Positions 20,680-32,984 of a stretch of DNA of 64,000 nt are shown here, piece by piece. This DNA is from Salinimonas iocasae (GTDB taxonomy: Bacteria > Pseudomonadota > Gammaproteobacteria > Enterobacterales > Alteromonadaceae), in contig NZ_CP039852.1 in assembly GCF_006228385.1 (NCBI RefSeq), forward strand, positions 868,001-932,000. Direction: 5' to 3'. Made by a program: the position numbers and the translations under genes. Each line of letters opens with the position of its first letter. The stretch's first letter is position 1. Under the pieces are notes generated by a model. That model did not search any database. It was given only the letters and a program-made list of their open reading frames with translations, and was not told the DNA's origin.

Positions 20680-21840
20680 ATGCAAACTTTTGTTCCCGAA
20701 GACCTTGAAGACGATATCCTCACCGATTTGATGGAGGAAATAAATGAGTTGTACGAAGCCAGCGAGCAAACACTGATCGAGCTTGAGCTGCGTCCTCAGG
20801 ACAATGAGTTGCAGCGTGCACTATTTCGCTCCATACATACCATTAAAGGTGATCTTGGTCTGGTAAATTTCACGCCGATGATTCCGTTACTGCAACATGT
20901 TGAAGATCTGCTGGATTTTCTCAGAAAAGGGCAGGTGCAGTACACCAGTACAATGAGTGACCTGGTACTGCTGACTATGGATCGCGTCAAGGTGTTCGTT
21001 CAGGAGGTGATGAATCAGGGTAAAAGTCAGTACGATGACGATTTACATCAGAAACTGGTTTTAGCTGTTTCACGTATTAAGCCGGATAATCAGGCTGATC
21101 ACGAGCGCCTGTTACACGAGGCGGTTTTATTGCTAAACCCTGCTTTGGACGCGCTGTCAGGCAGCGACGGGCCGCAAGGCGCAGGTTTTTTGCCGGAAGG
21201 ACAGGCATTGCCTGCAACACTCTCCAATACCGGTATTCCAAAAGCGATGAGCGCAGAGCGTCAGATGGATATGCTGTTTTTCCGGGAGTTGATGCAGACT
21301 ATTGAGCATCGTTCAAACTACTGGGCGGGGAGGGGCGACCGTATCGCCAAGCTGGCGCTTTATATTAATCATCAGGCGGGCAGCCCTATTGATGATGATC
21401 AGTTGGCTGTCGCCTGTTATGTTCACGATTTTGGAATGGCGTTTATGCCATTACACCTGTTGAACAAAACCGAGCCGCTAAGTGATAATGAGTTTAATCT
21501 GATGCGCTCGCATGTGTATAAAAGCTCACGTTTGCTGGAGCATCTGGACCAGTGGGACCACGCCCGTAAAATTGTCATGCAGCATCACGAGCGTCCCGAT
21601 GGTAGCGGCTATCCTTTAGGTCTTAAGGATGCCGATATCTGCGATGGCGCAAAGTTGCTGGCAATTCTGGATACTTATGACGCAATGACCCACTCCCGGG
21701 CCCACAATAAATCGTCCCGCGTACCGAAAAAGCAGGCGGTCATAGAAATGAACCGGCAGGCGAAGGGCCAATTCAGCGCCGAGTGGATGCGTCATTTTAA
21801 TTCTGTTATGACTTCCCTTTTGACGAAGCAAAGCAACTAG
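20680..21840 (+). CDS. Hpt-HD-GYP fusion, putative phosphorelay-controlled cyclic-di-GMP phosphodiesterase
   Basis: The 386-residue product joins two signalling modules. Residues about 1-125 form an Hpt helical bundle with the phosphorylatable His53 in FRSIHTIKGDLGLVNF. A linker follows. Residues about 195-385 form an HD-GYP domain with HD at 249-250 (CYVHDFGM), His278 (MRSHVY), and the signature HHERPDGSGYPLGLK at about 302-316. The invariant lysine of HDxGK is methionine here, and HPxxG is HVYKS, so activity may be altered. HD-GYP enzymes hydrolyse cyclic di-GMP and usually carry a receiver domain; an Hpt input is unusual. The hybrid kinase at 14.3-17.0 kb lacks an Hpt and could be a donor, which is speculation. 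It converges on the LysR gene with a 4-bp overlap. Confidence 0.85.
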   Translation: MQTFVPEDLEDDILTDLMEEINELYEASEQTLIELELRPQDNELQRALFRSIHTIKGDLGLVNFTPMIPLLQHVEDLLDFLRKGQVQYTSTMSDLVLLTMDRVKVFVQEVMNQGKSQYDDDLHQKLVLAVSRIKPDNQADHERLLHEAVLLLNPALDALSGSDGPQGAGFLPEGQALPATLSNTGIPKAMSAERQMDMLFFRELMQTIEHRSNYWAGRGDRIAKLALYINHQAGSPIDDDQLAVACYVHDFGMAFMPLHLLNKTEPLSDNEFNLMRSHVYKSSRLLEHLDQWDHARKIVMQHHERPDGSGYPLGLKDADICDGAKLLAILDTYDAMTHSRAHNKSSRVPKKQAVIEMNRQAKGQFSAEWMRHFNSVMTSLLTKQSN

Positions 21841-22745
21841 AAATGCTCTTTAGCTAATAATGATGTCGCCTGCTCTATGACCTGTCGGGCGATAACATTG
21901 TCGCGTTGATTGTGTCGGGTTAGTGCAAAAAACTGCTCCTGCAATGTATCGGCCTGGCCAATCCACTTCACTTGATATTGCTGTTCGACATGCCGGGCAA
22001 TACAGGATGGCGCACAAAACACACCGAAACCCTCTGCGCCGAAGAGTTTGAGCAGTGCACTGTCATCAAATTCCGCAATTTGCAGTGGAAATAACTGACG
22101 ATCCTCAAGCCATGCGCTCAGGCCGTAAGCGATGCCAGAGCGCACGCCTGGCATTAGCATGGGTGTTTGATTCAAAGATTCCGGAAAAGTGGCTTTCAGC
22201 TTACTGGCAATACCGGGACTGGCGAAAAAGCTGACCGCACTAGTGCCCAGGGACTGACTGACGGCGCTGACCGCAGCACCGGGCGCCACGCCGCGGTCTG
22301 CCAGTACAATATCTATCCGGTTGACGGCCATTTCGCTAAGCAGGTCATCAAATAAACCTTCTTTAAACACGAAGCGTACTTTAGGGTTAGATAACATCGT
22401 CTGGTGCATGAAATCATAAGCAAGCACCTTGGGTATAGCATCGGTCAGGCCAACAGTATAGTGACTGATAGCGTGTTCAGTGCCTGCGCTGAGCATTTCA
22501 GTCAGCTGGTTTCCTTTTTTAAAAATTTCCTGAGCATGTTGATAAACCTGTTTCCCCAGCGTATTCAGCTGTAACCGCTTGCCAGAGCGATCAAATAACT
22601 GCTGATTGCACTGTGATTCAAAGGTGGTAAGGAGCCCGCTGACTGTCTGCGGGGTAACATGCATCGCCTTGGCTGCACTGGCAATACTGCCCAGTTTTGC
22701 GGTCATGTAAAAATAATAGAGGTGGCGATAATTAAGCTGATTCAT
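21837..22745 (-). CDS. LysR-family transcriptional regulator, NhaR-like
   Basis: The 302-residue product has an N-terminal winged HTH (NYRHLYYFYMTAKLGSIASAAKAMHVTPQTVSGLLTTFE) and a LysR effector domain. The opening Y.HLYYF plus TPQT.SG, together with PGVRSGIAYGLSAWLE and EFDDSALLKLFGAEGFGVFCAP, closely follows NhaR, the sodium-responsive activator of the nhaA antiporter gene in enterics. No nhaA is adjacent. It is divergent from the ABC/HlyD/TolC trio, with about 100 bp between the starts, so by the usual LysR pattern it may control that operon. Assignment to the NhaR subgroup is fairly secure; the target is inferred. Confidence 0.8.
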   Translation of the reverse strand: MNQLNYRHLYYFYMTAKLGSIASAAKAMHVTPQTVSGLLTTFESQCNQQLFDRSGKRLQLNTLGKQVYQHAQEIFKKGNQLTEMLSAGTEHAISHYTVGLTDAIPKVLAYDFMHQTMLSNPKVRFVFKEGLFDDLLSEMAVNRIDIVLADRGVAPGAAVSAVSQSLGTSAVSFFASPGIASKLKATFPESLNQTPMLMPGVRSGIAYGLSAWLEDRQLFPLQIAEFDDSALLKLFGAEGFGVFCAPSCIARHVEQQYQVKWIGQADTLQEQFFALTRHNQRDNVIARQVIEQATSLLAKEHF

Positions 22746-22844
22746 TGCTAAGGTTTTTTCGATGTTATATCTCGATATTATCAGTTTTACGCTGATGATA
22801 AAGACCGTTACACTCTGGGTTCATTTTTTATCTGCGAAGAAGTG

Positions 22845-24518
22845 ATGGCTAAACACATAGCGCTTAAATCTGTTCGTAAAAAACTGTTTTCTCTACTTAA
22901 ACCTGATCGGCAATTCTTCACGGCAGCTATCGTCTATGGGATTGCAATTGGCTTGCTCACCCTGGCTGTTCCGTTAGCGGTACAGACGCTGATCAACAGC
23001 GTAGTCAATACAGCATCGGTGCAGGCGGTGGTTACTTTGGGAGTGGTACTTTTCGTTATCCTGCTCATCTCTGGCATCTTCAGTGCGCTGCGGATGCGTG
23101 TGATGGAATTTTATGAGCGGAAAGTATACTCACGGCTCACTTCACAACTGAGTCTGAAAACGATTTTTGCCCCTCACCGTTTTTTTGAAGGGCGGCGAAA
23201 TGTTGCTATCACGCAGCGATACTTCGACATCATGACGCTGCAGAAAAATATTCCCTCGCTGATGATTGACGGCTTTGCGCTGGTGCTGCAAATGCTGGTG
23301 GGATTTACACTGGTCAGTTTTTATCATCCGGCGTTCTTTGCATTTAACATTTTTATCCTGTTGATTATGCTGGCGATCTGGAAGTTGTGGGGCAAGGGCG
23401 CGAAACGTTCTGCTGTGCAGTTATCGCAGGCGAAATATGACTCTGCAAAATGGCTTAATGATATTGCTTCTGCACACGAGTTCTTTAAATCAAGCCGGCA
23501 TCTGGATTATGCCGCGAACAATACACAAAAGCATATTGAAAGCTACCTTAGCGCACATCGTCAGCATTTTAGGTTCACGTTTACCCAGGCGGTGATGTTT
23601 TTGCTGCTTTATGCGGCTGCTAGTGCCTTATTACTTGGTATCGGAGGATATCTGGTGGTGAAAGGGCAGTTATCACTGGGACAGCTAGTGGCGGCAGAAC
23701 TGATCATGTCGGCTGTTTTCATCGGTATATCCCGTTTTTCAATTTATCTTAAGCTTTATTATGAGCTTTACGGGGCAGCAGAAAAACTCTGTGGTGCACT
23801 GGAAATGCCGCAGGAGGATACAGACCAGACACAACAGGCTGTACCGGCATCATCCGCTTTGCGCTTCGACCAGATAGGTCTTGAGCATAATCATACCGCC
23901 TATTCGTTATCCTGGTCGATTCCACCGGGACAAAAATGTTACGTAATGACCACCCACGGATGGATGCAAAAGCAATTGCTCAGCTTTGTGAAGCGTCATG
24001 AGCGGCCGTCACGCGGCGTTATCTTCCTGGGTGAAAAGGCAATGCAGGATTATGATATCTTCGAGCTGCGCCAGAGCATTACCACCTTAGACAGAGCGCT
24101 GATGGTCGAATGTACGGTTAAAGAGTTTTTTCGCATGGCGGCACCGGATGCTGGCAGTGGGGATATCTATTCGGCGCTACGTCAGACCGGACTTTACGAC
24201 ACTATAGAGGGACTGCCGCAAGGGTTAGACACAACGCTATCGGTGATGGGTAGCCCGCTACAGCCTATTGAGCTACTACTGTTAAAGCTGGCAGCAACAC
24301 TGGTATCACAACCAAGAATTGTGCTGATTAACCAACATTTTGATGCGATTCCTGCAGCAACAAAAACCCGGCTACTGGAGGTTATTGAGGGTCTGGACGC
24401 TACTGTTCTGTATTTCACTAATGCGCCTGATTCACGGTATTTCGACAGGACAGTTACCCTTGAAGAGATTGCCGACAGGGTGCCAGCGACAAGAGATGGT
24501 CATCACAATGCATCATAA
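22845..24518 (+). CDS. ABC exporter-like protein with a degenerate ATPase domain
   Basis: The protein (about 557 residues) has the architecture of a type I secretion ABC exporter. A six-helix membrane domain (about 20-320) contains FYERKVYSRLTSQLSLKTIFAPHRFFEGRR and the family phrase GQLSLGQLVAAELIMSAV. The domain that should bind ATP follows. It has lost every key motif. In the Walker A position it reads TTHGWMQKQ (about 370-378), with no GxxGxGK[ST]. The LSGGQ signature is LQPIE. Walker B LLLDEP has become VLINQH (D to N, E to Q). The surrounding fold is still recognisable. The reading frame is intact, and the HlyD and TolC-like genes overlap it, so this is a maintained non-hydrolysing homologue and not a decayed gene. 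ATG 22845 or GTG 22842 are the possible starts. Confidence 0.85.
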   Translation: MAKHIALKSVRKKLFSLLKPDRQFFTAAIVYGIAIGLLTLAVPLAVQTLINSVVNTASVQAVVTLGVVLFVILLISGIFSALRMRVMEFYERKVYSRLTSQLSLKTIFAPHRFFEGRRNVAITQRYFDIMTLQKNIPSLMIDGFALVLQMLVGFTLVSFYHPAFFAFNIFILLIMLAIWKLWGKGAKRSAVQLSQAKYDSAKWLNDIASAHEFFKSSRHLDYAANNTQKHIESYLSAHRQHFRFTFTQAVMFLLLYAAASALLLGIGGYLVVKGQLSLGQLVAAELIMSAVFIGISRFSIYLKLYYELYGAAEKLCGALEMPQEDTDQTQQAVPASSALRFDQIGLEHNHTAYSLSWSIPPGQKCYVMTTHGWMQKQLLSFVKRHERPSRGVIFLGEKAMQDYDIFELRQSITTLDRALMVECTVKEFFRMAAPDAGSGDIYSALRQTGLYDTIEGLPQGLDTTLSVMGSPLQPIELLLLKLAATLVSQPRIVLINQHFDAIPAATKTRLLEVIEGLDATVLYFTNAPDSRYFDRTVTLEEIADRVPATRDGHHNAS

Positions 24519-25545
24519 TGAATCTCGCTATCTTGAGAAAATTTCCGCGTTAAAGAATGATTACCTGCCCAGCGCGTACCGCATCCTGGGCGGTGTGGTG
24601 GTTGCGCTGGTTTTAGTCACGGCTGCCATTTTGTGGTTTACCCCCTGGATTCAGACAGCATATGGCACCGGTTATGTGGATTCCCTTGATCCGTCAGAGC
24701 GAACACAGGCCATTTCGGCCCTGGTCTCAGGGCAAATCAAGCAGTGGCACGTTAAAGAAGGTATGCCGGTAGAAAAAGGACAGCCTATTGTAACGCTTAT
24801 CGACGTTGATGAAGAACTGGTTACCAAGCTGCAGGGGCAACTGGACGCCGCACAGGCTGTACATGCAGCAAATCAAAGTGCTGTAGCAAATGCCCGGAAC
24901 AACCTGACGCGACAGCAGGCGTTACTTGAACAGGGCGTGGCGTCAACCAAAACAGTGGAGGCAGCTCAGATAAAACTGCAGGAACTCATTGCAAAAGCGG
25001 CCAAATCACAATCTGATATCAACAAAGCCAGCGTGGCGTTGTCTCGTCAACGGACGCAGACCAAAGTGGCACCGGCGGATGGCGTTATCGTAAAGCTTAA
25101 ATCCGGTGGCCCGTCTACATATGTAAAGGCCGGAGAGGTATTGGGCGAGTTCATACCCCAGGTAGTACGCCGCACGGTACGGGTAACTGTCAGCGGTATG
25201 GATGCGCCACTTATCGAAAAAGGCCGCAAAGCACGCCTTCAGTTCGAGGGATGGCCGGTATTTCAGTTCAGTGGATGGCCCGATGCTGCAATTGGTACGT
25301 TTGGCGGGGAAGTTATCTACGTTGAGCCGGTAGCAGACAATACCGGTAACTTTACTGTATGGATTGCGCCAGATGAAAATGGTACACCCTGGCCGCAGGA
25401 GCAGGTAGTTCGGTATGGCAGTCGCGTAAAAGCCTGGATATTATTGGAAGAGGTTCGTCTGGGTTACGAGCTGTGGCGACAGCTCAATAATTTTCCGCCA
25501 AAACCTGTCGTCGCTAAAGACAGTACTCAGGGAACAAGCAAGTGA
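24508..25545 (+). CDS. HlyD-family membrane fusion protein
   Basis: The frame runs back into the ABC gene. The ATG at 24508 (MHHNESRYL) has AGAGATGG upstream and overlaps the ABC stop region by 11 bases; an ATG at 24496 is an alternative. The 345-residue product has a short cytoplasmic tail and one membrane helix (ILGGVVVALVLVTAAILWF). A lipoyl/barrel-sandwich strand follows (ISALVSGQIKQWHVKEGMPVEKGQPIVTL). A coiled-coil hairpin spans about residues 115-185, then comes the second lipoyl half (APADGVIVKLKSGGPSTYVKAGEVL), then a beta-barrel domain. It would bridge the inner-membrane exporter to the TolC-like channel. Confidence 0.9.
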   Translation: MHHNESRYLEKISALKNDYLPSAYRILGGVVVALVLVTAAILWFTPWIQTAYGTGYVDSLDPSERTQAISALVSGQIKQWHVKEGMPVEKGQPIVTLIDVDEELVTKLQGQLDAAQAVHAANQSAVANARNNLTRQQALLEQGVASTKTVEAAQIKLQELIAKAAKSQSDINKASVALSRQRTQTKVAPADGVIVKLKSGGPSTYVKAGEVLGEFIPQVVRRTVRVTVSGMDAPLIEKGRKARLQFEGWPVFQFSGWPDAAIGTFGGEVIYVEPVADNTGNFTVWIAPDENGTPWPQEQVVRYGSRVKAWILLEEVRLGYELWRQLNNFPPKPVVAKDSTQGTSK

Positions 25546-26933
25546 GAAATTTGCTGATTCTTTTTACATTGTCGTTTATCTGCGGCGCTACTCAGGCGTC
25601 ATCAATTACGCTGACGCAATTGCTGGAGCAGGTGATGGTATCACATCCTTATCTGCAGGTACTGGAGCAGCAAGGGCGCCAGCAGCGCTTTGCGCTGGAC
25701 AATGCTGATGCCGCATTTGATCCGTATATCGGTCAAAGCGCGGATAGTCGGCTGTCCGGCTATTATTCCGGTGATGTCGCCACCAGTGAGTTTGCTCAAC
25801 CACTGCGCGATATGAATGGTGAAATCTATACCCGATACCGGATCGCCGACGGTGATTTTCCGGTTTACGATGGCCAGTATGATACGTTGTCTGCAGGCGA
25901 AGCGTCTATTGGTGTAAAGCTGTCGCTGCTCAAAGGGCGCGAGACCGATGAGCGACGCACTGCTGTGCGCAATGCACGACTGGATATAGAACGCTGGGAA
26001 ACAGATTACCTGTTGGGCGTAAACAAACTGCTGTTTTCAGCAAGTATGACGTTTTTGAACTGGTACGAAAGCCATTTGAAAATTGAGCGTCTGACAGAAC
26101 TGCGCAGGACGCTGGAGAAGCAGGAAGCCGCATTGGCAAAAAAAGTGGAGCAGGGGGATGAGGCCCGGGTTACCCTAGAGGCCTTTGAAGCTAATCTGCT
26201 TGAAATTGATCTGCTGCGAGCGGCAGAAGAGCAAAAGTTGCAGTCTTCGGCAACCAAGCTTTATTACTATGTTCCCGCAAAGTGGGTCTCGCGTCTGGAA
26301 CCTGAACTGGCAACTGAGGGATGGCCGTTTCAGGTTAATCCTACGCTTCTTTCTGATTTGAAAAATAAATTGTCCGGGCATCCGCTTACCGATGACCTTT
26401 CACTGGCCCTTGAACAGCAACGAAACAAGCAGCGGCTGGCGGCCAATAATTTATTGCCAAAACTGGATGTTAAAGCAGAACTTGCAAGAGATATGGGGAC
26501 GGGGCCCAAGTCACTGACCCAGACAGATACAAAAATTGGGCTGAGCTTTTCGTATCCGCTAGGCAACCGGCAGGCTAAAGCAAAGGCAGCCAGCGCTCAG
26601 GCAAAATATAAAGAGCTGGAGTTTAAGCTACAGGATACAGAAAGAAAGCTGAATCAGCAGTTTGAAACAGCCGTCGCGCAGTGGCAGCAGAGCACCAGGC
26701 TCAGTGACCTGAATGCAAAGGCTGCTACGCTGGCCGACCGGCTTCAGGCTGTAGAGAAAACCCGTTTTGACGCAGGGGATACCGATATTTTTGTGCTTAA
26801 TGCCCGGCAAATAGCCTTTATTAAAGCACAGCTTAAACTGATTGCCGCACGCATTGATGAACGTCGCGCCCAGCTATCACTTTACTATGCCGTGGGTGGA
26901 CTACCCGCCACCCTTACACGGCAATCACGGTAA
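25542..26933 (+). CDS. TolC-family outer membrane channel protein
   Basis: The GTG at 25542 overlaps the HlyD stop (GTGA) and yields a signal peptide (MRNLLILFTLSFICGATQASS). The 463-residue mature-type product has the TolC layout: long amphipathic coiled-coil helices rich in Leu/Gln/Ala (LTELRRTLEKQEAALAKKVEQG; ANNLLPKLDVKAELARD), two internal repeats, and beta strands. It ends close to, and slightly overlapping, the convergent halogenase-family gene. It completes a three-gene type I secretion-like set. Nothing that looks like an RTX or other exported substrate is encoded nearby. Confidence 0.88.
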   Translation: MRNLLILFTLSFICGATQASSITLTQLLEQVMVSHPYLQVLEQQGRQQRFALDNADAAFDPYIGQSADSRLSGYYSGDVATSEFAQPLRDMNGEIYTRYRIADGDFPVYDGQYDTLSAGEASIGVKLSLLKGRETDERRTAVRNARLDIERWETDYLLGVNKLLFSASMTFLNWYESHLKIERLTELRRTLEKQEAALAKKVEQGDEARVTLEAFEANLLEIDLLRAAEEQKLQSSATKLYYYVPAKWVSRLEPELATEGWPFQVNPTLLSDLKNKLSGHPLTDDLSLALEQQRNKQRLAANNLLPKLDVKAELARDMGTGPKSLTQTDTKIGLSFSYPLGNRQAKAKAASAQAKYKELEFKLQDTERKLNQQFETAVAQWQQSTRLSDLNAKAATLADRLQAVEKTRFDAGDTDIFVLNARQIAFIKAQLKLIAARIDERRAQLSLYYAVGGLPATLTRQSR

Positions 26934-28412
26934 CCTCTGTGACTGAGGACTAAAGTTCAGTAAACAGCCATTAAAAAAGCTGGCCAATTGATGTTCCTTA
27001 AATAGATCACCGGTGCCGGGTTGTTCAGGGGCCAGCCCGGGAAATGCGCCGTAGCCTGCCAACAGGCAATGCCACGACGTAGCACCAAAATGCGTTGCGT
27101 GAGATTTTTCACTTAAAAAGCGGGCAAGATCTTCGCGCCGATACCAGGTATCCAGAATCTGTAACAGGTTTTCCGATAGGTGCATATTGTTACGGTTATC
27201 CCGCCAATACGCACTGTCGTTACGTGTATTGAGCTTATAATGGGCAACAATATAGTCACGCACATTATTGAAGTGCCCGGTGATTTTCTGATTGCACGAG
27301 ACCTGATGTTGCGCGGTGAAATTGCCTTTAACATACGCCTCACAGAAAAAGCGTATAGACAGCTGCACCAGGTGCAATGCCGTGGCTTCCAGCGGCTCGA
27401 TGAAGCCTTGTGATAAGCCCAGAGCCAGACAATTGCGATACCAGTGTTTGTCGGCCTGGCCGACCTTCATGGACAAAAAGCGCGCAGGTGCATCGTCCTC
27501 AAGCATTCCCAAATGTGTGCGCAGTTCAGTTTCAGCCTGATCATCACTGATATACTGACTACTATACACATAACCATTACCGGTTCGGTGCTGTAACGGA
27601 ATTGCCCAGGTCCAGCCGGCACTAAGCGCTGTTGCCTGTGTTTCTACCGGCGCGCTCGGATCGGCTGGCGTTGGCAGTACGACGGCCCGGTCGTTGAAAA
27701 GGTTGTCGCTGAATGAAGAGAAGGGCACCTTGAGCGCTTTTTGCAATAACAGGCTGTTAAAACCGGTGCAGTCTACGAATAACTCTGCATGAATCTCGTT
27801 GTCGTTTGAATCGATTAGCGCGCGAATATCGCCGTTTGGATGTAACGCCACATCCTGAACGTCGCAGACGGTATGTCGCACGCCCTGAGACAATGCGTGC
27901 TCTTTTAAAAACTCGCCCAGTAAACCGGCATCAAAATGATACCCATACTCAATACGAAACGGGAAATTGTCTGGTGTTAACGGACTTCGTTTTTGTTCAG
28001 CCAGGTAACTGTTAAACAAAAATGCGTCGGGGCTGGTGGTCACATCCAGCCCGAGCCTGCGGGTTTGTGAATTAACGTAAAATGCACGCTCGCTGAAGGT
28101 ATCAAGCTGGGAGATAAACGGATGACGATAGCTTGAATTACCCGATGCAGGGCTCCAGCCATGAAACTGAATGGCTACCTTATACGTCGCCTGACAGCGG
28201 GGCATCCACTGTGCATCTTCTATACCTAAATCCCGGAAAAACTGCTTCAGTGAGGGCGTGGAGCCTTCACCAACGCCTACTGTGGGGACATTGTCTGACT
28301 CAGCAAGCGTAATGGTTACCGGATGATGTTTGAAGTGGTGTGCAAACAGGTTGGCTGCCATCCAGCCAGCTGTTCCGCCTCCCACTATGACGATACGATG
28401 GGGCTGGCTCAT
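26925..28412 (-). CDS. tryptophan-halogenase family flavoprotein (second of pair)
   Basis: This 495-residue protein belongs to the flavin-dependent tryptophan halogenase family. Visible features are the FAD-binding GGGTAGWMAA near residues 11-20, a lysine at about position 78 (ATYKVAIQF) equivalent to the catalytic Lys79 of PrnA, and a WxWxIP motif in AGWTWAIPLQHRTGNG. True halogenases use FADH2, halide and oxygen to halogenate an aromatic substrate. Many homologues next to TonB receptors have unknown substrates, so no reaction is assigned. Its ATG overlaps the stop of the first halogenase-like gene (ATGA). No flavin reductase gene is adjacent. Confidence 0.85.
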   Translation of the reverse strand: MSQPHRIVIVGGGTAGWMAANLFAHHFKHHPVTITLAESDNVPTVGVGEGSTPSLKQFFRDLGIEDAQWMPRCQATYKVAIQFHGWSPASGNSSYRHPFISQLDTFSERAFYVNSQTRRLGLDVTTSPDAFLFNSYLAEQKRSPLTPDNFPFRIEYGYHFDAGLLGEFLKEHALSQGVRHTVCDVQDVALHPNGDIRALIDSNDNEIHAELFVDCTGFNSLLLQKALKVPFSSFSDNLFNDRAVVLPTPADPSAPVETQATALSAGWTWAIPLQHRTGNGYVYSSQYISDDQAETELRTHLGMLEDDAPARFLSMKVGQADKHWYRNCLALGLSQGFIEPLEATALHLVQLSIRFFCEAYVKGNFTAQHQVSCNQKITGHFNNVRDYIVAHYKLNTRNDSAYWRDNRNNMHLSENLLQILDTWYRREDLARFLSEKSHATHFGATSWHCLLAGYGAFPGLAPEQPGTGDLFKEHQLASFFNGCLLNFSPQSQRLP

Positions 28413-29902
28413 TGTATCTGAGTAAACCGGGCTAAAAAGTCGTCATGAGAAAGCATCTGGGCAAGAGGTTGTTGTTTGGCTTCATATATTTTACTCATGA
28501 TATCCAAAATCGCCTGGTCGCTGTGAACATCTGCTGAAGGGTGATAGTCGTTGGGCATAATACCTTGCCCCATCATTACCTGAACCCACGAGGCATCGCG
28601 AAAGATATCGTTTTGCTCATTAAATATTGTGGCGGTATCTCGAAAGGCGTTTATTTTCTGTTCAAGGCGAACCGGGAGTGACAACCGCTGCATATCCTGC
28701 CAGAAGTCTGAATCATCCCGTTCATTGAGATAGTAATGCAGGATTATAAAATCACGAATTGTCTCAAACTCGTCTTTTGACTCCGTATTATACAGTGCCT
28801 CCATCGATGGATTCACGGCCCCGTTCGGAAACATCTTCAGCAGTCTGACAATGCCGGACTGAATCAAATGAATGCTGGTAGATTCCAGCGGCTCGAGGAA
28901 TCCGCTGGAAAGTCCAATACCCACCACATTCTTATGCCATTGTTTTTGGGCGCGTCCCGTCTTGAAGCGAATTTTTCGAGGCTCGTCCAGGGCATCTGTA
29001 TCAAGATTGCCCATCAGCATGTTCGTTGCTTTCTCATCATCCATATAAGCTGAGCTGTAGACCAGACCGTTTCCGTTACGGTGAGTCAGCGGAATACGCC
29101 ATTGCCAGCCGACTTCACGGGCAATGCTGCGAGTATAAGGCGCCGTTTGCGTATGTGGTTTGGATGGGACGGCCAGCGCAGAATCTGCAGCCAGCCAGTG
29201 CGACCAGTCCTCATACTCAACACCTAATGCTTTTTGCAGCAACAACGCGCGCATACCGGTGCAGTCGATAAAGAAGTCGCCGTCAATCTGGCGCCCATCT
29301 GTCAGTTGCAGTGCCTTTACAAAACCGGATTCATTATCTAAAGCCACGTGTTCGATAGTGCCTTCGGTACGCTTAACACCGGCTTGCTCTGCCAGGCGAC
29401 GCAGGAACTGACCATACAGGGTGGAGTCGAAATGGTAAGCGTAGCCCATTGAGTAAACGGGGTTTTCGGTTTGTATCTTATTGAACTTGCCGGCTTTGCA
29501 GCTAAGGTAATTTAAATCAAAATCCCACAACGAAGCCTCAAGCCCTGCTTTTTTTGCCCGCAGCCAGTAATGCTGAAAACCACAGAAACCGAGCGTAGCG
29601 CCAGGTGCGCCAAACGTATGAAAATAGCTTTCACCCTGTTTTCGCCAGTTTTCGAATGCTATTGCCAGTTTGATCGTGCCGTTGGTTTCTCTTAAAAATG
29701 CTTTTTCATCCAATCCAAGAAACTGGTTGAAGGTTTGTATGGGAGGAATAGTGGCTTCACCGACACCAATAGTACCAATATCTTTTGACTCGATGAGTTC
29801 GATATCGACCTGTGCCTGAAGGACTTTTTTCAGCAAAGCCGCCGCCATCCATCCTGCTGTACCGCCACCGGCGATAACGAGTTTGCGAACGGATTGTTGC
29901 AT
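28409..29902 (-). CDS. tryptophan-halogenase family flavoprotein (first of pair)
   Basis: The 497-residue product is a divergent paralogue of the downstream gene. It has AGGGTAGWMAA near residues 11-21, Lys78 in GTIKLAIAF, and the WxWxIP motif in VGWQWRIPLTHRNGNG. The segment GVGEATIPPI is also family-typical. It lies about 115 bp downstream of the TonB receptor on the same strand, with a hairpin between. I infer co-regulation of the receptor and both flavoproteins, perhaps for uptake and modification of an aromatic or glycosidic compound. Substrate and halide specificity cannot be read from sequence. Confidence 0.85.
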   Translation of the reverse strand: MQQSVRKLVIAGGGTAGWMAAALLKKVLQAQVDIELIESKDIGTIGVGEATIPPIQTFNQFLGLDEKAFLRETNGTIKLAIAFENWRKQGESYFHTFGAPGATLGFCGFQHYWLRAKKAGLEASLWDFDLNYLSCKAGKFNKIQTENPVYSMGYAYHFDSTLYGQFLRRLAEQAGVKRTEGTIEHVALDNESGFVKALQLTDGRQIDGDFFIDCTGMRALLLQKALGVEYEDWSHWLAADSALAVPSKPHTQTAPYTRSIAREVGWQWRIPLTHRNGNGLVYSSAYMDDEKATNMLMGNLDTDALDEPRKIRFKTGRAQKQWHKNVVGIGLSSGFLEPLESTSIHLIQSGIVRLLKMFPNGAVNPSMEALYNTESKDEFETIRDFIILHYYLNERDDSDFWQDMQRLSLPVRLEQKINAFRDTATIFNEQNDIFRDASWVQVMMGQGIMPNDYHPSADVHSDQAILDIMSKIYEAKQQPLAQMLSHDDFLARFTQIQ

Positions 29903-29978
29903 GGGCTAATCCTTATAGTTCAAACAATTTACTAAAAGGCTGACTCTAGTGAAAAAAAACATAAAAGCAACAGATTAA

Positions 29979-30010
29979 TAAAGCGGCCTTGCTTTAACAA
30001 AGCCGCTTTA
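29979..30010 (-). terminator. hairpin after the TonB receptor gene, possible attenuator
   Basis: TAAAGCGGC pairs with GCCGCTTTA around a 14-base loop just beyond the receptor stop codon. On the minus strand the stem is followed by TTATTAATCTG, a poor T-run. It may be a partial terminator that lowers expression of the downstream halogenase-like genes, or a stabilising 3' hairpin. Confidence 0.5.
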
Positions 30011-30018
30011 GGCGATGG

Positions 30019-32937
30019 TTAGTAGAAGTTGTAGTTGAAGTTAAGCATGTATGACGGTCCGAACTCGCGACGCAGCGTTACAAGGCCGTTACCGTCGCGG
30101 GTTTCTTCATCCTCGTCAGTCAGGTTGGTGCCCTGAAGCGAAACCCGTAGACCCTTGAGGTAGTCAATACCGCTGTCAGCAAAATCGTAGCTGACTTGCG
30201 CATCAACCTGCGTAATACCATCTCGGGTGGCCTGTTCAATTTTGTTTGAACCACCACGTTGATAGGTCAGGTACTCAGAACGGTCTGTTGCTGCAACCCG
30301 AATTTCAAAGCCACCAGTTTCGTAGTAAGCCGTCAAAGAGTACACCCGATCCGACTGACCCGGAATGGCAGTGCCGTCGCTCAATTCCGCGTCAATTATG
30401 GTAGCGGATCCGGCGATACCAAAGCCTTCCAGCATATCTGCCAACATTGAAAGCGGAACTTGCGCGGTAAATTCGGCACCTTTCACTTCACCTTCCAGGC
30501 CATCTTCAAAGAATGAGAACGTGCCCAGGTCCGGCGGTGTCAGGTATGTGCCCGGGGAATATTCGGTGCCATCCGGACCGACCAGACCATCCGCACCCAC
30601 GGTACGATCATGGAACCCCGGAATGAAGTAGTTCGCACCGTCGTTGGTTGGATCGTTAGTGAAATCAATAGTCTGGTTGCCGTCTCTGGTCCAGTTCACC
30701 AAATCTTTATAGAACAGGGCCAGTGATACATAGCCTTCATCTTCAAAATAATTCTCAAATGACAAGTCGAAGTTATTCGCTTCTAAGGGACGAAGTGTTG
30801 GGTTGCCCTGGAATTTTGACCATGGCGACCCATATTCCGCAACATCTTCTGCCGTATTTGGAATCGCGATGAGGTTGATATTCTGGTCAAATTTCACAAA
30901 GCCGGACGCTTTCATCTGGTCAATACGTGCGCGGCTGATGGTCTTCGATGCGGCGAAACGCACATACTGATTTTCTGCCAGCTCAACATTGATGTTCAGG
31001 CTGGGCAGAAAATGAGAGTAGTCATCAGAAATGCTCTGAATACACGAAGCATCTACCTGCCCATCGTTATCCGCGTCACATACTTTAAAGTTTGCACCGA
31101 CAATCCCGATATATCCGGTAGAACTTTGGTCAGTTTGTACATATTGCGCACCTACATTACCGGTAACAAAGAAGCCGGCGAGGTCAGTTTCAAAGTCAAA
31201 CTTAGCAAACAGGGTGGTCACTTCTTCATTCACCTCAAAGGTATCACCCAGGCGATCCGGCTCCAGCAGACCTGCATCATTTAACGTGTACTCACCATCG
31301 TTATAAGGGGCAAAACCGTCATAAGCAACAACCTGACCGAACCCGGCCCAGCTTAAATCTGCAAGACCGTTGTAGAGGTATTGCTCAGGAATGGCTTCGG
31401 ACTGAGGGTAAGAAGACGCCGTGGCAAAGAAACCTTTGTTATCTTTGCTCTTATAGCGATCGGAGTAAGCGACACCAACATTCACTTTACGGATAATCCC
31501 CCAGTCGACTAAACCGAAGGTTTCGAACCGGGCTGTGGTCAGCTCTTCCTCAAAATCGGCAAAGTTAAGAAAGCCATCCTGAGCATTGATATAGTTGTAG
31601 GTTTCACCGTCTGCGCGCAGTACATCGGTGGCAAACTGATCTGCCAGACTCGCCATACCACCACCCCAGGGCTGCGGGCCAGCCAGTTGTAGCATGGATG
31701 GATCGGCAAACGCGCCAAGGCCGTTGGAGCCGGTAAATACAATCCCGTCAGGGCTCATAACAAAGTCACGCGAGCGTTCATCAGCCGGCGCCAGTGCGGC
31801 ACCATTTCGTGAAAGGCCGGCGTAGGATTCGCCGCGCAGATCCCGTTTTGATGATTCGCTGTCAGCAACATCCAGTTCAACAGACCAGCTGTCATTCAGG
31901 TGGTAAGTAAGGTTGATACCGTAAGTAGAAAGTTCACCATCTTTTTGCGCCGGGTCGGTACGCAGTACCGGGTTTGCATTTATTTGCGTTCCCGTTGAGT
32001 TTGCACCGCTGCCGCTTAGCGAGGCAGCATCCAGCTCAAACGGTTCGATAAAACCACGAATTACGCCAGAGTCCGAGTAGTCAATATCCAACACATCAAC
32101 AACAATGTCCCAGTTGTCGCCGGGGCGCCATTGCACAATACCTGATACAGTATCGCGCTCCAGTACACGACTTATCGCTTGTGTATCGAGTCCGAAAGGC
32201 AAAAGCGCGCCGTTGTTATCACCGTAACCCCATACGCCATACTTACGCTCGTTTCGGGGTGACTCAGTAGAGGCAATTGCTAAAGCTACACCTAACGTAT
32301 CATCGGCAAATTTTTCGACAAATGATAATGCGTAGCGATGGCCCTCATTATCGAACTCCGGATTGTCGGAATCATTTCCTCCGCGTTCCAGAGTACCTGT
32401 TAACGTCAGCGTTTCCTGTGCAGCCAGTGGGCGCACAGTTTGTAAATCAACAGTACCACCGATGCCCTGAACCAGTAATGAAGCGTCGGTGGTTTTATAA
32501 ATAGTGGCACCCGTCATAATCTCTGATGGATAAAGGTCGTATTCGACACCGCGGTTATCGCCGATACCGATAAGTTCACGACCATTTAACGAGGTGCCGG
32601 TGAAATCTTCTTTAAAGCCACGAACAGAGATACCGGAAGTTCGACCACCTACGCGCTCACCGGCAAGACCAGGCAGGCGTGCCAGAGATTCGGCGATAGA
32701 AGAATCGGGAAGCTTACCAATATCCTCAGCAGAAATTGCTTCAACGATTGAAGTGTTATCCATCTTTACGGCCTGAGCGCGGATCAACGAACCCCGAATC
32801 CCTTTTACCGCAATGACCTCAACATCTTCGTCAGGATTAGAAGTGAGCGTATCCTGAGAAAAGGCGTGAGCGGAATACATTGCCGAACCAACTGCAATTG
32901 ACAGTAAAGCCGGTTTAAATAGTTGTTTTCTCATCAT
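30019..32937 (-). CDS. TonB-dependent receptor (Xanthomonas/Caulobacter type)
   Basis: The product (about 972 residues from the ATG at 32937) starts with a signal peptide (MMRKQLFKPALLSIAVGSAMYSAHAFSQ). The plug domain follows, with a TonB-box-like stretch (EDVEVIAVKGIRGSLIRAQ) and the family phrase DIGKLPDSSIAESLARLPG. The rest is a long beta-barrel rich in Asp/Gly/Tyr turns, ending with the C-terminal signature YMLNFNYNFY. Receptors of this class in Alteromonas and Xanthomonas import oligosaccharides and other large nutrients using the proton motive force via TonB. The ligand is not identifiable. A palindromic candidate operator lies 32 bases before the start. Two halogenase-family genes follow it. 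Confidence 0.92.
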   Translation of the reverse strand: MMRKQLFKPALLSIAVGSAMYSAHAFSQDTLTSNPDEDVEVIAVKGIRGSLIRAQAVKMDNTSIVEAISAEDIGKLPDSSIAESLARLPGLAGERVGGRTSGISVRGFKEDFTGTSLNGRELIGIGDNRGVEYDLYPSEIMTGATIYKTTDASLLVQGIGGTVDLQTVRPLAAQETLTLTGTLERGGNDSDNPEFDNEGHRYALSFVEKFADDTLGVALAIASTESPRNERKYGVWGYGDNNGALLPFGLDTQAISRVLERDTVSGIVQWRPGDNWDIVVDVLDIDYSDSGVIRGFIEPFELDAASLSGSGANSTGTQINANPVLRTDPAQKDGELSTYGINLTYHLNDSWSVELDVADSESSKRDLRGESYAGLSRNGAALAPADERSRDFVMSPDGIVFTGSNGLGAFADPSMLQLAGPQPWGGGMASLADQFATDVLRADGETYNYINAQDGFLNFADFEEELTTARFETFGLVDWGIIRKVNVGVAYSDRYKSKDNKGFFATASSYPQSEAIPEQYLYNGLADLSWAGFGQVVAYDGFAPYNDGEYTLNDAGLLEPDRLGDTFEVNEEVTTLFAKFDFETDLAGFFVTGNVGAQYVQTDQSSTGYIGIVGANFKVCDADNDGQVDASCIQSISDDYSHFLPSLNINVELAENQYVRFAASKTISRARIDQMKASGFVKFDQNINLIAIPNTAEDVAEYGSPWSKFQGNPTLRPLEANNFDLSFENYFEDEGYVSLALFYKDLVNWTRDGNQTIDFTNDPTNDGANYFIPGFHDRTVGADGLVGPDGTEYSPGTYLTPPDLGTFSFFEDGLEGEVKGAEFTAQVPLSMLADMLEGFGIAGSATIIDAELSDGTAIPGQSDRVYSLTAYYETGGFEIRVAATDRSEYLTYQRGGSNKIEQATRDGITQVDAQVSYDFADSGIDYLKGLRVSLQGTNLTDEDEETRDGNGLVTLRREFGPSYMLNFNYNFY

Positions 32938-32968
32938 ATTTTGCGTGCCCTGTTGCGACTCTATTGGT

Positions 32969-32984
32969 TGTAACATTCGTTACA
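32969..32984. promoter_or_regulatory. palindromic candidate operator upstream of the TonB receptor
   Basis: TGTAACATTCGTTACA has 6-bp perfect arms around a 4-base centre, 32 bases upstream of the receptor start. The size and form resemble operators of LacI or TetR-type regulators. No regulator gene of those families is adjacent, so the protein that binds it is unknown. Confidence 0.4.

Follow-up and report, generated by a model that had tools for sequence, protein, structure and literature searches.

A three-gene operon of Salinimonas iocasae was found to encode a homologue of ATP-binding cassette (ABC) exporters that lacks the ATPase motifs, followed by a periplasmic adaptor and a TolC-family outer-membrane factor (Table 1). 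The operon lies in a stretch of 64,000 nt of NZ_CP039852.1 (positions 868,001-932,000, forward strand). The whole of this stretch is called the window here, and gene coordinates are window positions. The homologue almost certainly belongs to an old family of ABC-exporter-derived proteins without ATPase motifs, whose genes stand beside one type of adaptor, nearly always beside an outer-membrane factor and often beside a LysR-type regulator. The best reading of the whole is an inducible small-molecule conduit with an ABC-fold subunit that would not hydrolyse ATP, and it is given a probability of about 0.5. Transport by this conduit, its substrate and its energy source are what we infer. The use of ATP is what defines ABC transporters. 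A family that lacks the ATPase motifs, and yet retains the fold together with adaptor, channel and in many cases a regulator of its own, would be a natural experiment on the purpose of the ATPase domain, and it makes testable whether an ABC membrane domain can transport without ATP.

The motif losses reported in an initial annotation of this DNA, TTHGWMQKQ for Walker A, LQPIE for the signature and VLINQH for Walker B, were all found where that annotation had placed them, and the H-loop histidine was found to be gone as well (N527). Residues are numbered with the GTG codon at 22842 as residue 1; this codon is a possible start, the ATG at 22845 is likelier, and the frame is intact to its end on the + strand. 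Conservation of the replacements was analyzed in an alignment of 121 rows (A1), consisting of the window protein and the best 120 of 1090 matches. W374, Q376 and R418 were each present in 121/121 rows, and the Walker A lysine is thus replaced by glutamine throughout. The Asp-Glu pair of Walker B was replaced by N497 and Q498 in all 119 rows reaching that motif, and the first glycine position of the signature was occupied by proline in 109 of the 119 rows with a residue there. At position 527, asparagine was observed in 88/119 rows and the histidine was retained in 7/119. As aligned, the catalytic residues are each replaced by neutral ones, mostly amides: Lys by Gln, Asp by Asn, Glu by Gln and His mostly by Asn. 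Chance or misalignment was rejected as the cause of the motif loss, given invariant replacements and a complete fold model. The AlphaFold2 model predicted a complete exporter fold including an ATPase-like domain (mean pLDDT 86), in agreement with the overall ATPase fold proposed initially. Of the marks of the ABC exporter class, the fold and the membrane domain (Pfam ABC_membrane, 62.1 bits, cut-off 28) are present, and ABC_tran (PF00005) is absent by sequence from the Pfam matches at E≤1. The best PDB sequence matches of the ABC profile were ordinary exporters, e.g. ABCB1 and HlyB. Several public members of the family are annotated as 'ABC transporter ATP-binding protein' though the ATP-binding motifs are absent or partial, a naming that conceals the motif loss.

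The same losses were observed in a genome scan for the ABC homologue, from which the best 80 loci of 377 relatives were taken. All 80 loci were degenerate; Walker A was found at the aligned position in 0/80, and the C-terminal half contained a signature of the LSGG type in 0/80. These loci include a group of about 40% identity from Sphingomonas, Xanthomonas, Kordiimonas and Halieaceae, in which the replacement residues are more variable and the catalytic Glu was retained in 3/13 sampled rows. Four farther rows (L093-L095, L100) were also degenerate, with the Walker A Lys retained in one and the Walker B Asp in two. Within the genus of the window, the gene was present in 31 of 40 genomes, as a single copy in each and free of stop codons in 31/31. 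Judged from these alignments, the motif loss is a family trait and not a local one, and a recent local loss was rejected on the degeneracy of the whole A1 alignment and of all 80 loci and on the stop-free genus copies. Ratios of non-synonymous to synonymous substitution rates (dN/dS) were calculated for 16 pairs, of which one gave no result, and saturation reduced the remaining 15 to 10, 7, 8 and 6 valued pairs for the membrane domain, ATPase domain, adaptor and outer-membrane factor, respectively. In this order the medians were 0.02, 0.04, 0.02 and 0.06 and the maxima 0.05, 0.10, 0.15 and 0.10; in the clade of the window the synonymous divergence (dS) exceeded 1 in every pair, so that the ratios are rough there. 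The three unsaturated pairs, all of the Sphingomonas type, gave 0.04-0.05 for the membrane domain, 0.04-0.10 for the ATPase domain, and 0.08 and 0.15 for the adaptor. The gene is evidently maintained under selection, as had been supposed from the outset; no close relatives with intact motifs were seen among the sequences compared, and neither the dN/dS values nor the genus copies pointed to relaxed selection. A recently decaying gene or a sequencing artefact, to which the motif losses by themselves might point, is hardly credible in view of the 80 degenerate loci, the stop-free copies and the low dN/dS.

Similar losses were found in relatives from two bacterial phyla. The methanotroph-type set consisted of the best 120 of 2054 matches, the named ones being Methylococcales, and 11 of the 120 rows were used in trees. 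In these 11 rows the Walker A Lys and the Walker B Asp were present in 11/11, the catalytic Glu in 1/11 and the H-loop His in 0/11, and the signature resembled LSTTQ or LSAAQ. The Bacteroidota-type set of 122 rows (the best 120 of 6587 matches and two translated proteins) contained a GK[STN] Walker A in 112 rows, LSGG in none, the H-loop His in none, and the canonical Asp and the canonical Glu in two each; an Asp at the catalytic position was observed in 12/15 sampled rows. The Q-loop count is unreliable in this set, as many rows have the Q shifted by one position. The Walker A and the catalytic-position Asp of the Bacteroidota type, and the complete fold, would be expected if the ABC homologue still hydrolysed ATP using other residues, which is nevertheless very unlikely, as the clade of the window lacks the Lys, the Asp and the Glu in every row reaching them. 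In two relatives, L096 (methanotroph) and L128 (Persicobacter), about 150 extra N-terminal residues were observed, possibly a C39-like domain.

In a tree of the membrane domain only, a branch supported at 100/99 parted 46 degenerate rows from 18 intact exporters; the program flagged long branches, and the intact references were thinly sampled, from 56 gammaproteobacterial genomes, so that nearer intact relatives are possible. The clade of the window, with 14 rows, was also supported at 100/99. A quick tree with 15 of the 122 Bacteroidota-type rows placed 54 degenerate rows together (SH-like approximate likelihood ratio test 100) and agreed on the main split, the inner group order being unresolved. 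Seven degenerate rows and two intact references were left out of this quick tree. The same set was used for the sampled counts of domain conservation and membrane residues given below, and the main counts were repeated with all rows.

An adaptor gene came directly after the ABC homologue in 77/77 loci having at least 1.2 kb downstream, and an outer-membrane factor gene was found in 74/74 having at least 2.8 kb (both of the 80 loci); the neighbour models behind these counts, and behind the LysR counts below, were built from the same loci that they score. Homologues with the same losses form a clade that keeps both partners, the outcome that the initial annotation had proposed to look for. In the window the reading frames overlap, by 11 bases between the ABC and adaptor genes (adaptor ATG 24508) and by 4 bases between the adaptor and outer-membrane factor genes (GTG 25542). 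Methanotroph-type loci matched the outer-membrane-factor model weakly (65 bits in L096, 42 bits in L143). The gene order ABC, HlyD, TolC was found in two annotated Bacteroidota records, and a third record has open reading frames (ORFs) of suitable kind and length in this order, the third ORF being a candidate. In the Riemerella plasmid record L130 the three-gene set lies amid thymidine kinase, mur and ribosomal protein genes, and the record may be a chromosomal piece. Two distant genomes (L099, L100) have a very diverged pseudo-ABC gene beside the adaptor, and from their first residues we take the neighbouring genes to resemble gatCAB genes.

An adaptor probe was run because a degenerate query might retrieve only degenerate kin. 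The adaptor profile, built from 8 adaptors that all adjoin pseudo-ABC genes, was searched against 398 Pseudomonadota genomes and gave matches in 11 genomes of 7 genera, including the window's own and three of its genus. A pseudo-ABC gene adjoined the adaptor in 11/11, ten being fully degenerate and one of the methanotroph type, and no normal ABC gene was found beside the adaptor in these 11 of the 398 genomes probed. When 249 genomes were searched with an ABC profile of the whole family, the scores among the matches listed fell from 664 to 157 bits, the latter for an intact protein of the type I secretion system (T1SS) type.

The adaptor matched an RND-type adaptor model with 83.4 bits and HlyD with 45 bits, both below cut-off, and the AaeA model weakly with 32.6 bits. 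Its best PDB fold matches were MacA, AcrA, ZneB and MexA, with low template modelling (TM) scores, and no PDB sequence relative was found at E≤0.001. The RLS motif for docking to TolC, whose definition and spacing were taken from the accessible part of PMC3391258, was well conserved, with R in 69/69, L in 69/69 and S in 52/69 adaptors. No PADLOC defence-system matches were obtained for the three operon proteins, and no phage matches at E≤1e-20 for a Xanthomonas family member.

Conservation within the ABC homologue was unlike that of intact exporters. The ATPase-like domain was the more conserved of the two domains in 120/120 sampled intact pairs, compared to 0/276 pairs among 24 rows sampled from the group of the window and that of Sphingomonas, 0/55 methanotroph-type pairs and 0/105 Bacteroidota-type pairs. 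With all rows the corresponding counts were 153/153 for intact exporters, 0/3057 for the 80 loci, 0/6 for the four distant rows, 1/6520 for the methanotroph type and 0/7214 for the Bacteroidota type. By this measure conservation is lower in the pseudo-ATPase domain than in the membrane domain, the opposite of intact exporters. In the clade of the window, 55 of the 59 invariant columns lie before residue 326. Five residues of the membrane domain, F128, Q150, H162, E286 and Y307, were invariant in 54/54 sampled rows of all groups, and each was shared by at most 2 of 16 intact references. Q134, K135, G154, F168, S195, K198, W204, H242 and Q249 were near-invariant in the same 54 rows, each again in at most 2/16 intact references. 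In larger, partly overlapping sets (121, 80, 7, 120 and 122 rows), E286 and F128 were present in every row; the exceptions were one row for H162, two for Y307 (one of them a gap) and five for Q150. Three of the five invariant residues are polar or charged and lie in or beside predicted membrane helices (AlphaFold2, hydropathy). As a basis for an ion- or substrate-gradient reading they are at most a lead.

A different role would be that of a scaffold or sensor, in which the ABC-fold protein anchors the adaptor and the outer-membrane factor, or reports envelope state or a ligand through the pseudo-ATPase pocket, without transport. The catalytic replacements are conserved and neutral, not random, and W374 and R418 are present in all rows of A1, as for a repurposed pocket. 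The scaffold or sensor is nevertheless unlikely, since conservation is highest in the membrane domain, and since a conduit is suggested by the presence of adaptor and outer-membrane factor and by the kept RLS motif.

A LysR gene of this type was found within 3.5 kb in 57 of the 76 loci with enough upstream sequence. Clustering of the neighbours in 81 loci gave a LysR-type gene in 60 and 18 for the next commonest cluster, so that the LysR gene was the only widespread neighbour; no search for RTX-like genes was made. An operator-like motif was observed in 30 of 36 divergent LysR-ABC intergenic regions; the pattern was written from the same, partly related regions, which makes its shuffle control circular, and genome scans serve as the check. 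In the window's own genome the CGATGTTATATCTCGATATTATCAGTTTT-type site at the operon was the only one with zero mismatches, and one other site had two. The latter lies at G000:C1:1313681-1313709, and its 3 kb locus contains no ABC or LysR gene of this type. The sibling operator pattern was found in 23 of 40 genomes of the genus, once in each, with 0 control matches and in 23/23 cases between the LysR and ABC genes; it was present in 23 of the 31 genomes having the ABC gene and in 0/9 of those without it. The regulator seems to have the operon as its main target, or even its only one, because the pattern is single per genome and always at the LysR-ABC locus. The LysR gene and the conserved operator-like site are part of the same unit as the three-gene operon, and the gene and the unique operator together appear to mark a dedicated regulatory unit.

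The system was initially described as type I secretion-like, a description that was weakened by the analysis. The adaptor and outer-membrane factor genes alongside are shared with T1SS. However, the ABC homologue scored far below the cut-offs for T1SS ABC proteins (TIGR01846 116.5/725.55, TIGR03375 81.8/693.1 and TIGR01842 72.9/510.15 bits), it differs from the proteins of HlyB-HlyD-TolC, LssB and PrtD in having no Walker A, signature, Walker B or H-loop, and it has no space for a C39-like domain ahead of the membrane domain. The short, RND-leaning MacA/AcrA-like adaptor and the linkage to LysR are further differences. The leaning of the adaptor towards the RND type, with LysR as the only widespread neighbour, would fit a small molecule as substrate better than a secreted protein. 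Compared to MacAB-TolC and the RND adaptors (MacA, AcrA, MexA), the likeness lies in the adaptor fold, with low TM-scores, and in the spacing of the RLS motif as given in the part of PMC3391258 available; the inner-membrane partner differs, being neither MacB nor an RND protein but a six-helix ABC-exporter fold that lacks ATPase motifs. Heterodimeric exporters (TmrAB, TM287/288, TAP) have also lost catalytic residues naturally and, by structure matches, have the same fold; the window homologue differs from them in that every motif is lost, including Walker A, and no partner gene is directly adjacent. One-sided degeneracy in heterodimers is treated in the accessible parts of a review on degenerate sites (PMC7756269) and of one on tripartite systems (PMC8277102). 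The family was classed as a putative variant of tripartite ABC systems and not as a member of T1SS. The AaeAB and EmrAB tripartite efflux systems have a dedicated regulator, an adaptor and an inner-membrane protein that does not use ATP and is not of the ABC fold. The likeness to these systems would lie in the regulator, the adaptor and the lack of ATP use, and the inner-membrane protein of the window differs from theirs in having the ABC fold. Such a pseudo-ATPase ABC family was not described in the titles and abstracts of the open-licence literature searched, a scope outside which most subscription papers and bioRxiv fall.

In the proposed conduit, the LysR protein would sense a small molecule and induce the operon through its single operator. 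The adaptor, held by one membrane helix, would link an ABC-fold membrane dimer to the outer-membrane channel through the RLS hairpin tip. The substrate would cross the membrane domain without local ATP hydrolysis, the driving force being either the gradient of the substrate itself or that of an ion, the latter via the new polar membrane residues, and the pseudo-ATPase domain would keep the dimer together and may sense a ligand. It is possible, and suggested only tentatively, that an ABC exporter lineage dropped ATP and now serves, as a secondary transporter or gated channel, as the inner-membrane component of a tripartite system that runs on an ion or substrate gradient. Polar membrane residues such as E286, H162 and Q150 would then act in coupling or gating, and the methanotroph and Bacteroidota types would be ATP-binding intermediates.

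Several points weigh against the conduit. Its support consists of sequence comparison and one-chain models. The two distant genomes L099 and L100 (2.0-2.1 Mb, one family) have the adaptor, and no outer-membrane factor was found beside the pair, and in 19/76 loci a LysR gene of this type is missing from the nearest 3.5 kb. Walker A is present in most methanotroph- and Bacteroidota-type relatives, in which ATP binding may therefore still matter. Only the LysR gene and the adaptor type suggest a small-molecule substrate, and the polar membrane residues could instead serve adaptor contacts or folding.

The chief rival to the conduit is that the complex draws its power in trans from an intact ABC exporter whose gene lies elsewhere. 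The pseudo-ABC protein would then be either the inactive partner in a heterodimer or an inactive dimer within a mixed ring round the adaptor hexamer. The window's own genome encodes at least four ordinary ABC exporters whose motifs are intact, and an intact one lies about 3 kb upstream in six Xanthomonas loci (L073, L078, L079, L081, L083, L085); one that was examined exceeded the MsbA_rel (TIGR02204) cut-off. When 81 loci were scanned for motifs, with flanks of at most 10 kb and in many loci less, no intact exporter was found beyond these six, save seven unclassified ORFs with ABC motifs, of 524-610 aa and 4.4-9.3 kb downstream, and in none of the 81 loci was an intact exporter directly adjacent. 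The fold matches of the pseudo-ABC protein include the one-site-degenerate exporters TmrAB and TM287/288. In known heterodimers the degenerate halves keep Walker A. Here, in contrast, even Walker A has gone, and the domain as a whole shows lower conservation than the membrane domain. Degeneracy at one site is common among exporters (PMC7756269). According to PMC9751043, three HlyB dimers are assembled with six HlyD in the HlyB/HlyD complex, and a single dimer is the protein channel. One channel dimer of three makes power in trans conceivable, but all three HlyB dimers hydrolyse ATP (PMC9751043). On balance we regard powering in trans as rather doubtful.

Table 1. Features of the operon and its regulatory region, in window positions.
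Feature	Position	Strand	Basis
LysR-type regulator, NhaR-like, divergent	21837..22745	-	Pfam HTH_1 and LysR_substrate; NCBIfam NhaR 179.8 bits (below cut-off 219)
Operator-like site CGATGTTATATCTCGATATTATCAGTTTT between the two divergent genes	22760..22788	+	Motif scans of intergenic regions and genomes
Pseudo-ATPase ABC-exporter homologue	22845..24518	+	ORF, Pfam, alignment, AlphaFold2; 558 aa with GTG 22842 as residue 1
Membrane domain, residues 8-320, with F128, Q150, H162, E286, Y307	22863..23801	+	AlphaFold2 helices; conservation compared to intact references
Former Walker A TTHGWMQKQ, residues 370-378	23949..23975	+	Lys replaced by Q376; also W374
Former signature LSGGQ, now LQPIE, residues 473-477	24258..24272	+	Alignment
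Former Walker B VLINQH, residues 494-499	24321..24338	+	Asp replaced by N497, Glu by Q498
Former H-loop His, now N527	24420..24422	+	Alignment
Periplasmic adaptor, 345 aa	24508..25545	+	Single membrane helix (predicted), domain of lipoyl type, hairpin about 40 residues long
TolC-docking RLS motif RQQALLEQGVAS at adaptor hairpin tip, R135/L139/S146	24910..24945	+	Motif definition from PMC3391258
TolC-family outer-membrane factor, 463 aa	25542..26933	+	Pfam OEP 92.4 bits, two stretches

Just 3' of the operon, on the opposite strand (26925-32976), two tryptophan-halogenase-like genes and a TonB-dependent receptor gene were observed. ORFs of similar length (cluster c19), which are not found in most other loci, also lie 3' of the operon in L006, L007 and L009.

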